5,569 bases of DNA from an uncultured Clostridia bacterium (GTDB lineage: Bacteria > Bacillota > Clostridia > Oscillospirales > Acutalibacteraceae). The position numbers were made by a program, and so were the translations under genes. The stretch spans positions 1 to 5,569 of the forward strand of contig CAMPAT010000064.1 in NCBI GenBank assembly GCA_946633275.1, given 5' to 3'. The stretch's first letter is position 1; each line of letters starts with the position of its first letter. The notes under the pieces were generated by a model. It saw only the letters and a program-made list of their open reading frames with translations. It was not told where the DNA came from and searched no databases. Shown here piece by piece: positions 1,581 to 5,569 of the stretch.

Positions 1581-1622
1581 ATAAAATATAATAAGCCCCT
1601 GTACCGAAAGATACAGGGGCTT
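1581..1622 (-). terminator. Riboswitch-controlled attenuator terminator in the thiT leader
   Basis: On the minus strand AAGCCCCTGTA (1622-1612), loop TCTTTCGG (1611-1604) and TACAGGGGCTT (1603-1593) form a perfect 11-bp stem. A U-rich but interrupted tail (ATTATATTTTAT, 1592-1581) follows. It lies between the TPP aptamer and the thiT ribosome binding site, the usual place for the expression platform of an OFF-type TPP riboswitch. Its 5' arm is also complementary to CAGGGG in the aptamer (1707-1702), which gives a possible antiterminator. Confidence 0.9.
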
Positions 1623-1632
1623 TATTTATTAT

Positions 1633-1712
1633 CTCGTCTTGACGGCTCGCATTACCGAACCTCTTGGCGGGTATATTCTCAGCCCCGGATTTACCGGAGC
1701 ACCCCTGACATC
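1633..1712 (-). ncRNA. TPP riboswitch (THI element) aptamer
   Basis: On the minus strand the conserved THI-box core reads in order. GGGGT (1705-1701) begins P2. P3 is GCTCCGG/CCGGGGC (1700-1694 with 1688-1682) around a five-base loop. CTGAGA, the thiamine-pyrimidine pocket, is at 1682-1677. ACCC (1672-1669) closes P2. P5 is GGTTCG/CGAGCC (1661-1656 with 1649-1644) around GTAATG, matching the family's TAATG loop. The P4 strands differ from the usual CCTGAT...CGTAGGG pattern, and P1 is weak (TGTC with GACG, one wobble). High TPP should stabilise the aptamer and let the downstream terminator form, switching thiT off. Recognition rests on motifs read by eye; a covariance-model search would settle the exact ends. 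Confidence 0.87.
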
Positions 1713-1716
1713 GTTT

Positions 1717-1782: not shown

Positions 1783-3438
1783 TTAATAATACGAACGTGT
1801 TGTATAGTTAACTTTGCCGCCTGCATATCTGCGAAGCGTGAAGGACTTGCCCTTCTTCGAAACCTTAAGAGTCACCTTCTTATGCTTTGCTGCAGTGCAG
1901 GTATAAAACGCGCACTGAACCTTCTGGTCTTCAAGCCACATTCTAATCATAATCGGATGGTTGGTATTATTCCTGAACTTAAAGTCCTGCGAGCCGTAGT
2001 AAACGGTAGCGTCGCGGCCGAGCTTGCCGTAATGCACGCGCTGAGAATGCTGATGTCTCTCAACAATCTGCATATTGGCAACGAGCGCCGTATTAAACAC
2101 AGTTGAAGCAACCTGACATACGCCGCCGCCGTAGCTCTGAATAACCTCGTTTGCGCCGCGGAAGGTAGAAGCCTTCTTATAGCCCTTGCTTGCCGACCTT
2201 ACGCCTACAGTCTTGTTAAACGAGAACACCTCGCCGGGATAAATGATTGTGCCGTTAATCGCCTTGCAGGCAATGCGAAGGTTATTATTACGCGCAGGCT
2301 TGTTCGGATAATGGATTGCGTGTTTTGCGTAAAGATAGCTGTAATTCGTCGTAGCCTTATTGCTCCACTCACCGTTTGCAGCCTGTTTGTTGTTATTGTA
2401 AAGATTACGCGCTCTTACACGCACATAATACGTCTTCTTATTCTTCGGGATAGTGATATTCTTCGACTTAAGGTCTTTTGAAACATACACATTCTTAACA
2501 TTGCTCTTAAAGTTTTTGCTCGTAGAATACTGAAGGTGGTAATCGTCGCAGGTAACCTTCTCCCACTTGACGGTAAGCGTTTTACCATTCTTCGACTTGC
2601 CTACTGCAGTAAGCTTAACCTTTTTCGGATTTGTCGCGTTAAGGAATACATCGCTGAAATCACCGAAAACGTCGCCGTTATTATGCGAAAACGCTCTGAT
2701 TTTGAAGTAATTGTCGCTGCTCTGGCTGAGGCTGTAAGCAGTACCCTCTGCAGCAGAAACTGTTGCGCGGTGCTTAACGTTTCCGCCGTCCTTGTCGCAG
2801 GTGTAAATCTGGTACCCGTCAACGCCTGCCTGAGCATTCCACGCGAGAGTGATGTTATATACATTTCTCTTCTTTACGTAAATGCCTGTAACCTTGCTCG
2901 GATAAACATTAATGCTGATATTCTTCGTACCTTTAAAGTTACCCTTGCCCGTATAAGTTGCAGTACCTAAGTGAGAGCCGACCTTATTAATATTGCTGAA
3001 AGATACTGTATAATCAGTACCTTCCTTAAGCACCTTATTGCCGAAAGTAACCTCGTAAGCAGAGCCGCTGCCTACAGTCGCCTTCTTAATTCCGCGGAAT
3101 TTTGCCGCAGAGATATCAGCAGGATTAATCTTGAACACCTTGTCTGCAGTACCCGTATATCCGTCAATACCTGTAACAGTAACCTTCGCTGAAGAAGTTA
3201 CGTTGATATTATCGGAATAAGTGAGGCTGTAATCGGAGTTCTCGGTAAGAGTTGTGCCGCCGTCCTTAACCGTAACAACAGGCTTGATTTCCGAGCCGGT
3301 ATAAGCATATTCGCTCTGCGCAAGCTGGATATCTGCTTCTGCGATATCCTTAGCAGGAACGGCGCTTGCCGAAAACGCGCCGAAGGTGCTTACCGTAAGC
3401 ATTACTGCCGCGCATAAAAGACTGATAGTTCTTTTCAT
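1783..3438 (-). CDS. Secreted Ig-like/FN3/VanW-domain protein
   Basis: This 551-residue exported protein begins with a signal peptide (residues 1-26: KR, then ISLLCAAVMLTV, cleavage near ASA-VP). Two related Ig-like modules follow (about 34-105 and 110-178), each with a [SD]DY-[ST]-[LV]-[ST]-[YF]-S-[DN] strand and a G-x-Y/F-x-GT turn. Two FN3 modules come next (about 180-268 and 271-366). The VanW domain (about 383-510) shows NLRIACKAINGTIIYPGEVF, FSFNKTVGVR, the invariant GGGVCQVAST around C441, ERHQHSQRVHYG and the DATVYYGSQDFKF block. A basic tail (515-551) ends the protein. VanW domains occur widely in Gram-positive envelope proteins. Their biochemical role is unsettled, and this is not evidence of vancomycin resistance. 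There is no G5 or transpeptidase-like domain. A GGGGGAC ribosome site precedes the ATG. The gene starts 18 bases after araD and shows no terminator of its own. Confidence 0.9.
   Translation of the reverse strand: MKRTISLLCAAVMLTVSTFGAFSASAVPAKDIAEADIQLAQSEYAYTGSEIKPVVTVKDGGTTLTENSDYSLTYSDNINVTSSAKVTVTGIDGYTGTADKVFKINPADISAAKFRGIKKATVGSGSAYEVTFGNKVLKEGTDYTVSFSNINKVGSHLGTATYTGKGNFKGTKNISINVYPSKVTGIYVKKRNVYNITLAWNAQAGVDGYQIYTCDKDGGNVKHRATVSAAEGTAYSLSQSSDNYFKIRAFSHNNGDVFGDFSDVFLNATNPKKVKLTAVGKSKNGKTLTVKWEKVTCDDYHLQYSTSKNFKSNVKNVYVSKDLKSKNITIPKNKKTYYVRVRARNLYNNNKQAANGEWSNKATTNYSYLYAKHAIHYPNKPARNNNLRIACKAINGTIIYPGEVFSFNKTVGVRSASKGYKKASTFRGANEVIQSYGGGVCQVASTVFNTALVANMQIVERHQHSQRVHYGKLGRDATVYYGSQDFKFRNNTNHPIMIRMWLEDQKVQCAFYTCTAAKHKKVTLKVSKKGKSFTLRRYAGGKVNYTTRSYY
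2413..2526 (-). repeat. FN3 core segment shared with the plus-strand FN3 protein
   Basis: Residues 305-342 of the VanW-like protein carry STSKNFKSN (2526-2500) and KKTYYVRVR (2439-2413). Both are identical to peptides in the last FN3 module of the gene at 1-753. Spacing between the two motifs is similar (20 versus 21 residues), so the modules are paralogous. Confidence 0.7.
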
Positions 3439-3456: not shown

Positions 3457-4167
3457 TTATTTTGATTGACCGTAGTAAGCATTCTTGCCGTGCTTACGCT
3501 GGTAATGTTTATTAAGAAGATAGTTCTCAATACCTATATCGGAATTATCGCTGAGAGAAGCGACGCTCTCGGTACGGTACGCCATCTTAGCTACCTCCTC
3601 GAGAATGAGCGCGTTATCTACTGCGGAAAAGGCGTCCTTGCCCCAGGTAAACGGCCCGTGACGGTGAATAAGCACCGCCGGGCATTCAGCAGGACTGATA
3701 CCGCGTTTTGCAAATTCTTCAACAATTACCTTGCCTGTATTAAGCTCGTACTCGCCGTTGACCTCGTCCTCGCTGAGTCCGCGTGTACAGGGAACTGCGC
3801 CGTTTGCAAAATCGGCGTGAGTCGTGCCGTAAGCAGGGATATCGCGTCCTGCCTGCGCCCACGCGCAAGCCCACGGAGAATGAGTATGAACTATTCCGCC
3901 GATGTTCTCAAACTTCCTGTAAAGCTCAAGATGTGTCGGAGTGTCCGACGACGGATTGAGCTCGCCCTCAACCTTATTTCCGCGAAGGTCCATAACTACC
4001 ATATCGTCGGCAGTCATGGTGCTGTAAGGCACGCCCGACGGTTTGATTACGAACAGTCCGCGCTCTCTGTCTATACCCGAAACATTACCCCAGGTAAGCA
4101 CAACGAGATTATAGTCAACAAGCCTGAGATTTGCTTCAAAAACCTTCTTCTTTAATTCTTCCAACAT
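3457..4167 (-). CDS. araD: L-ribulose-5-phosphate 4-epimerase
   Basis: AraD interconverts L-ribulose 5-phosphate and D-xylulose 5-phosphate by a retro-aldol/aldol mechanism at a zinc site. This is the last step of bacterial L-arabinose catabolism, in the cytoplasm. The 236 residues match the family's usual ~231. The class II aldolase fold landmarks are all present: TWGNVSG (25-31), IKPSGVPY (41-48) for phosphate binding, NPSSDTPTH (71-79), VHTHS (93-97) with zinc ligands H94 and H96, HAD (117-119) with the catalytic-acid candidate D119, IHRHGPF (167-173) with zinc ligand H170, and the C-terminal [10 protein letters not shown] (225-234) with the catalytic tyrosine. Assignments follow the characterised E. 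coli enzyme. It lies 42 bases downstream of araA on the same strand, so the two are probably one operon. An AAAGGA site about 10 bases upstream supports the ATG at 4167. The protein appears intact. Confidence 0.97.
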
Positions 4168-4209: not shown

Positions 4210-5569
4210 TTATTTTATATTAAGTTTATATGCAACGTCGTTAAAGAATAATTCTTTACGGAATTCGTTGATATCAGTATCCTTATTGATATGGATAAAT
4301 TCAATACCCATAATCTCCGCAAAATCGCGCATATGCTCCGCCGTAAGAGTATATGAAAGCACGCTGTGATGAGCGCCGCCTGCGTAAATCCAGGCTTCAG
4401 CGGAAGTCTGAAGATTCGGAAGCGGCTTCCAGAGCACGCCTGCGACGGGGAGCTTCGGCATAGCATTAACCTGTTCCTTGCACTCAACATCGTTAACAAT
4501 CATACGAAGTCTGTCGCCCATATCGACGAGAGTGACTACGATAGCGTCGCCCGTCTGAGCCTTGAAAACAAGTCTTGCAGGGTCTTCCCTGTCGCCTATA
4601 CCAAGCGGATGAACCTGAATTTTCGGCTTTTCGCCCGCAATAGTAGGACAAACCTCGAGCATATGTGAGCCAAGGAGCATTTCGTTACCGGGTTCAAAGT
4701 GATACGTGTAGTCCTCCATAAAGGCAGTACCGCCGTCAAGTCCCTCAGCCATTTTCTTCATAAGGCGAGTCATAGCGGCAACCTTCCAGTCGCCCTCTGC
4801 GCCGAAGCCGAAGCCCTGACGCATTAAGTCCTGAGCTGCAAGACCGGGAAGCTGACGGAGCTCCTGCAAATCCTCAAAGTTAGTATGAAACGCGCCGAAG
4901 CCTTCCTTAACGAGGAACTTTTTGAGCGCAACTTCTTCTCGCGCCTGATATCTGACAGCGTCGAGATTGTCGGTATCCATAACATAATTCTGCTCATACT
5001 CAGCCATCTGAGCGTCGATTTCATCCTCTGTTACGGCGTCAACCATCTTAATGATATCGCCGACTCCGTAGTGGTCAACCTGCCAGCCGAGTTTAATCTG
5101 AGCTTCAATCTTATCTCCGTCAGTTACGGCAACATTACGCATATTGTCGGAAATACGGAGCACACGAAGCTTGCGTGACTCCATAGCGCCTACAGCCGCG
5201 CGCATCCAGACGTCCATCTTATGCTGGAACTCAGCGTCCTTCCAGTAGCCTGCAATAACCTTCTGCTTCATACGCATACGCGCTGTAATATAACCGTGCT
5301 CTCTGTCGCCGTGAGCAGACTGATTAAGGTTCATAAAGTCCATATCAATCTCGTCCCACGGAATATCGCGGTTATACTGAGTATTAACGTGGAGGAAAGG
5401 CTTTTCAAGAGCGTTGAAGCCTGCAATCCACATCTTCGACGGCGAGAAAGTATGCATCCAGGTTATTACGCCTGCGCAGTTTGGAGTATTATTAGCCTCC
5501 TGCATAATACCGAGGATTTCCTTGGAAGTCTTGTAGTCGAGCGCGCCTGTCGGCTCGTCGCACAGCAGC
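4210..5569 (-). CDS. araA: L-arabinose isomerase, lacking its own N-terminus and joined in frame to an ABC ATPase segment
   Basis: AraA isomerises L-arabinose to L-ribulose in the cytoplasm and uses a divalent metal. Residues are numbered here from the ATG at 5505. The protein is unmistakable from EANN (3-6): CAGVITWMHTFSPSKMW, then DMDFMNLNQSAHGDREHG (54-71), GFGFGAEGDWK (231-241), FMEDYTYHF (262-270), GSHMLEVCP (279-287), HPLGIGDREDPARLVF (299-314) and GGAHHSVLSY (376-385). E264, E284, H299 and the HH at 379-380 are conserved candidates for metal and substrate binding. The C-terminus is complete. About 431 residues align, whereas AraA is normally near 500, so some 65-70 N-terminal residues are absent. 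The frame stays open to the edge, but those codons encode an ABC-transporter motif instead. The ATG at 5505 is not a credible start: it lies inside a conserved AraA region, and only GAAATCCTCGGT, with no Shine-Dalgarno, precedes it. araD follows after 42 bases; araB is not visible. Confidence 0.93.
   Translation of the reverse strand, partial: LLCDEPTGALDYKTSKEILGIMQEANNTPNCAGVITWMHTFSPSKMWIAGFNALEKPFLHVNTQYNRDIPWDEIDMDFMNLNQSAHGDREHGYITARMRMKQKVIAGYWKDAEFQHKMDVWMRAAVGAMESRKLRVLRISDNMRNVAVTDGDKIEAQIKLGWQVDHYGVGDIIKMVDAVTEDEIDAQMAEYEQNYVMDTDNLDAVRYQAREEVALKKFLVKEGFGAFHTNFEDLQELRQLPGLAAQDLMRQGFGFGAEGDWKVAAMTRLMKKMAEGLDGGTAFMEDYTYHFEPGNEMLLGSHMLEVCPTIAGEKPKIQVHPLGIGDREDPARLVFKAQTGDAIVVTLVDMGDRLRMIVNDVECKEQVNAMPKLPVAGVLWKPLPNLQTSAEAWIYAGGAHHSVLSYTLTAEHMRDFAEIMGIEFIHINKDTDINEFRKELFFNDVAYKLNIK
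5506..5569 (-). pseudogene. ABC transporter ATPase fragment (Walker B / D-loop) fused in frame to araA
   Basis: The minus strand from the window edge reads LLCDEPTGALDYKTSKEIL. LLCDEP is a Walker B strand with the catalytic glutamate. TGALD is the D-loop typical of MacB/LolD-like ATPases that partner FtsX-type permeases. In an intact ATPase, a beta strand and the switch histidine (ITHN-like) would follow about 20 residues later. Here the sequence passes without a stop or frameshift into AraA (EANN, CAGVITW). The exact join cannot be placed better than about 5495-5525, because EILGIM could belong to either family. The rest of the ATPase, if present, lies outside the window. Confidence 0.78.

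Follow-up and report, generated by a model that had tools for sequence, protein, structure and literature searches.

Does the end of this contig encode a fusion of an ABC transporter ATPase with L-arabinose isomerase, or are two separate genes joined there? The window, which is the whole stretch of 5,569 bp analysed here, is the entire contig C64 of its own draft genome (G000), a draft of 1,159,960 bases in 241 contigs that is 62.5% complete. Since the window is thus a complete contig of a fragmented draft, the join sits in its last 57 bases.

The frame and its neighbours

The minus-strand araA frame (5568-4210) opens with LLCDEPTGALDYKTSKEILGIMQEANN and is open up to the contig edge, as an earlier note on this DNA had stated, and its first codons, LLCDEPTGALDYKTSKEIL, are of the ABC ATPase type. 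The further observation of that note, that ABC ATPase codons precede those of AraA in one reading frame, is confirmed by NCBIfam ABC models that match the frame start. The features discussed here are, in window coordinates:

5533..5569, minus strand: ABC-ATPase-specific tail, codons LLCDEPTGALDY (Walker B plus D-loop), from NCBIfam ABC models and a DNA match
5512..5532, minus strand: KTSKEIL-coding 21-base segment holding the join, with codons that suit both families
4210..5532, minus strand: araA, L-arabinose isomerase, without codons for the first 51 residues (PRK02929, E=3e-212)
3457..4167, minus strand: araD, L-ribulose-5-phosphate 4-epimerase (NF006047, 373 bits against a cut-off of 257)
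1783..3438, minus strand: fn3/VanW-domain protein with a signal-like start, as judged by eye (PF04294, E=3e-49)

Downstream of araA come araD, the fn3/VanW-domain gene, and a ThiT-like gene (864-1568). Directly upstream of the ThiT-like gene, positions 1622-1716 (minus strand) give a weak match to the TPP riboswitch model RF00059, with GCUGAGA in the aligned core. A short scan gave it 26.6 bits (E=0.0017) against a gathering score of 54.3. No match in the window reaches a gathering score, and this one is perhaps a divergent TPP riboswitch.

Two protein families and the switch between them

Most of the frame is an ordinary isomerase. PRK02929, the AraA model, covers frame residues 13-450 starting from profile position 55, and in Pfam the central and C-terminal domains are complete (PF24856 and PF11762), while AraA_N (PF02610) is present only from profile position 49 because the contig leaves the gene. 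Frame residues 13-452 thus look like AraA as it is known from PRK02929 and these Pfam domains, in the araA-araD order of relatives, and the difference from a usual AraA is that the first 51 residues are absent from contig C64, a number counted on the 489-residue AraA of G035 and smaller than the roughly 65-70 missing residues estimated in the earlier note. The nearest relatives by AraA are G006 and G035, whose proteins are 95% (over query residues 13-452) and 94% identical, respectively. A near-full AraA match beginning at query residue 12 or 13 was found in 34 of 36 other genomes of the genus, in open frames of at least 491 residues; the exceptions are G013, which has no match, and G017, which has a piece starting from residue 12 and cut by a contig edge. 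The AraA matches of relatives begin just where the ABC-specific codons stop.

The ABC-type start itself was not seen on any other isomerase. DEPTG stands ahead of the AraA core in 0 of 109 AraA loci of relatives (L006-L114, with at least four contigs taken twice and one search keeping 80 of 595) and in none of the 120 listed among 7,998 AraA homologues in a large protein collection, so that the join is absent from related genomes, and the full-length AraA proteins naturally carrying such an N-terminus that the earlier note had asked about did not turn up in either set. An ordinary AraA N-terminal motif is present in 104 of the 109 loci; among the other five, L047, L097, and L101 have an ordinary start when inspected by eye, L055 is truncated at its contig edge, and L058 carries a different fusion, described below. 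Only one araA match exists in all of draft G000, and the stretch 5490-5569 has no second full match there, only three further matches of 14-19 bases each.

The start of the frame belongs to a different family. Ten ABC ATPase models match it, starting at residue 1 or 2 and ending between residues 28 and 42. The best is TIGR03608 (residues 1-31, E=5.5e-4), and FtsE matches residues 1-28 (E=1e-3), both models being from NCBIfam; all the scores are far under the whole-protein cut-offs, as expected when only a fragment of the protein is present. The ABC share amounts to 12 specific codons and at most seven more that suit either gene (window 5512-5568), less than the 24-residue piece described earlier. 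With the last 60 bases as query, the intact ABC ATPase gene of G035 (contig C98) is 84% identical over 57 bases, and 13 of 80 genomes in the genus, G000 included, give matches at E<=0.001, several of them short. The likeness to LolD/FtsE/MacB-type ABC exporter ATPases thus lies in the Walker B and D-loop codons and in this DNA identity to an intact gene of the same genus, whereas the difference is that only 12-19 codons are present, on a contig without room for Walker A or LSGGQ. The extension past 5569 proposed in the earlier note has no sequence to draw on in this assembly, since contig C64 stops there. In G006 the intact ABC ATPase has 233 residues, with a motif that we take to be Walker A, LSGGQQQR, and LLCDEPTGALDYHTSKEIL, and the gene after it codes for a permease-like protein of 909 residues. 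An ABC ATPase of the G006 type was found at E<=1e-80 in 6 of 60 genomes of the genus, with G000 among the 60 and not among the six; no intact copy of the gene was found in G000, where the best-scoring ABC matches elsewhere are 39-42% identical.

A mobile or viral source of the ABC piece was also considered and rejected. Viral contigs scanned for an exact match of 36 bases had none. Among phages the best hit, with 86.8% identity across 53 bases, was a faecal 'Bacteriophage sp.' record that has no annotation, and among plasmids a phosphonate ABC gene came top (76% identity, with 74% of the query covered); neither explains the join.

A codon comparison with relatives places the switch between the two families within seven codons. 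Up to and including codon 12 the frame agrees with the ABC gene, and from codon 20 onwards it agrees with araA; codons 13-19, which spell KTSKEIL (window 5512-5532), suit both, so that two unrelated genes are joined inside a look-alike segment. Of the 120 AraA homologues listed, 36 contain KTSKEIL, as do 14 of the 120 ABC homologues listed, and the longer DYKTSKEIL is likewise found exactly in 14 of 120 listed ABC homologues. The earlier note named EI..I..N as a segment that both families tolerate here; this begins inside KTSKEIL, the segment that must hold the switch.

How conspicuous this site is at the DNA level varies among relatives. When the two genes are paired 21-mer by 21-mer (ungapped, plus strand), the site is covered in G035 by the single best of 995,038 pairings (17 of 21 bases), and in G006 only by one among the top 31 of 1,089,154; it is not conspicuous in G001 or G027, where 27,123 of 1,040,944 and 1,144 of 1,034,113 pairings, respectively, score as high. 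Between genes of different relatives, the longest exact runs shared in the segment are 17 bases, a length attained in 11 of 646 pairs (38 araA by 17 ABC segments of relatives, cut around the site), and the six pairs inspected combine different genomes. Since the intact ABC gene and araA start of G000 itself were not found, an identity of 21 bases is an upper bound set by the codons rather than an observation, and the exact 21-base stretch occurs only in loci of C64 itself (5 of 188 loci, all C64). Chance repeats are expected at k=21: a crude uniform model predicts about 0.9 of them in 2 Mb and about 57,000 in 500 Mb.

Gene order in relatives and other contig ends

In G006 and G035 (L119 and L120), the order is kinase, araA, araD, and VanW protein, and the araD and fn3/VanW-domain gene (1783-3438, minus strand) that follow araA in the window are the neighbours found in both. 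Beyond the kinase, both relatives have a membrane-protein gene, presumably for an ECF-transporter subunit. In G000, contig C80, whose start truncates the gene, codes for kinase residues 10-187 beside the relatives' usual neighbour gene. Neither the kinase residues beyond 187 nor the araA start were found in G000, absences that carry little weight in a draft of this completeness. A simple deletion from an upstream ABC gene to araA should have taken the kinase with it, given that this gene immediately precedes araA in G006 and G035, and yet part of it is kept. The comparison of the araA locus in close relatives that the earlier note had proposed gave ordinary AraA ends, with the ABC gene on other contigs: the two genes lie on separate contigs in all four relatives compared (G001, G006, G027, and G035), and G006 and G035 have a full-length AraA and an intact ABC ATPase, each on its own contig. 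The ABC gene of G027 sits deep inside a contig of 313 kb, at 159.6 kb and with over 150 kb on either side of it; araA is on another contig there, so the genes are more than 150 kb apart.

Among the contig ends covered, just one besides that of C64 is suspect. The right end of C52 (6,137 bases; L176) codes at 6053-6136 (plus strand) for 28 residues that match, at 93% identity, positions 844-871 of the permease in G006, from the same transporter family as the ABC ATPase. This terminal piece of about 85 bases is out of place, beginning within 30 bases after the stop of a gene that we take to be acetolactate-decarboxylase-like, and in G006, the one relative inspected, no permease piece lies in the 140 bases after that gene. 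The right end of C52 is probably a second chimeric end; because it was met via the permease search rather than by sampling, it gives no rate of such ends.

For comparison, 20 of the 241 contigs were sampled (C52 and C80 chosen on purpose and 18 taken at intervals). A frame of at least 100 residues lies near 29 of the 40 ends, and 22 of these frames run off the end. A Pfam scan covered 20 of the 22 (all except C30 right and C120 right) and placed a domain match within one residue of the end at C70 left, C105 right, C110 left, and C115 left. Together with C80, where the kinase aligns up to the end, this makes five clean ends; the other 15 scanned gave no judgement.

Origin of the join

We conclude that the join between the ABC ATPase and araA is very probably an artefact of assembly and not a new fusion protein, because it sits at a contig end, the switch falls in a shared peptide, both genes are ordinary in relatives, part of the kinase is kept, and a second odd end exists in the same draft. 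A short-read assembler would have walked from araA into an ABC-ATPase gene by way of a sequence, at most some 21 bases long, that is probably common to both. The real genome would then have an ordinary full-length araA with the kinase gene ahead of it, and a separate intact ABC transporter gene would exist, either in G000 itself or in a neighbour; with ordinary araA and a separate ABC gene, there would be no fusion protein and the promoter of the operon would be unchanged. It is probably contig C64, and not the cell, that lacks the 51 AraA residues. Of the two explanations offered in the earlier note, the chimeric contig join is supported, whereas the real deletion or novel fusion finds no support in the ordinary relatives, the separate contigs, and the partly kept kinase.

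Chimeras of this general kind are known from short-read de Bruijn metagenome assembly: a review (PMC7299287) describes communities of related species whose assembly graphs are often linked by shared k-mers and can yield chimeric contigs, and assemblers that start from small k. The likeness is that shared k-mers link different places, here through a look-alike stretch at a contig end; the difference is that the passages concerned speak of related genomes being mixed, whereas here the join is between two different genes, with an ABC piece that may stem from the same genome or another. Some results speak against an assembly artefact. The site is not conspicuous in G001 or G027, the identity of 21 bases is an upper bound in a draft where neither the intact ABC gene nor the araA start was found, and the five judgeable contig ends are clean, so chimeric ends are not general in this draft. 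The join also keeps the reading frame, as a real fusion would, although a shared peptide guiding the assembler explains this too.

A real deletion, from an upstream ABC ATPase gene to araA at a short direct repeat, would leave a truncated and probably inactive isomerase. It could account for a join in frame at a peptide common to both families, and for the failure to find in G000 an intact copy of this ABC gene elsewhere, the kinase beyond residue 187, and the araA start. We nevertheless regard it as very unlikely, since absences mean little in a draft that is 62.5% complete, kinase residues 10-187 persist beside their usual neighbour even though the kinase adjoins araA upstream in G006 and G035, and in G001, G006, G027, and G035 araA is not on the contig that has the ABC gene, with at least in G027 more than 150 kb between them. 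There is similarly little chance that recombination at a 21-base KTSKEIL repeat produced a genuine ABC-ATPase/L-arabinose isomerase fusion, with araA-araD under an ABC-transporter promoter. In the parts of the literature available on N-terminal fusions of arabinose isomerase with an ABC transporter, only surface-display work appeared, apparently unrelated.

A rearrangement other than deletion, or strain variation that places a partial araA copy behind an ABC gene in some cells, would leave the kinase where it is. We find this highly improbable too, in view of the single araA match in G000, the downstream araA-araD-VanW order, which is that of the primary operon of G006 and G035, and the second matches in 36 genomes of the same genus, which are ABC-type pieces rather than a second araA. 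Least credible of all, and next to impossible, is a naturally occurring AraA whose N-terminus owes its likeness to an ABC Walker B to coincidence: we found no support for it, ABC family models match the N-terminal piece, a real ABC gene shares 84% of the bases of this piece over a length of 57, and 0 of the 120 AraA homologues listed start this way.

With assembly as the preferred origin of the join, the locus illustrates how a seven-residue peptide shared in similar codons can make the end of a draft contig look convincingly like a fusion of two domains in one frame. Fusion proteins at contig ends should be compared with relatives and with reads before they are named.

Among the relatives, L058 (4936-7323, plus strand, of NZ_CALXEG010000005.1) has a 795-residue frame in which the N-terminal part of a sugar kinase is fused in frame to an AraA without its start. 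The kinase part resembles the kinase upstream of araA in relatives, and the site lies inside an 85-kb MAG contig. This frame reflects either an in-frame deletion or another assembly join, and it is a more interesting fusion candidate than the ABC-araA join of C64.
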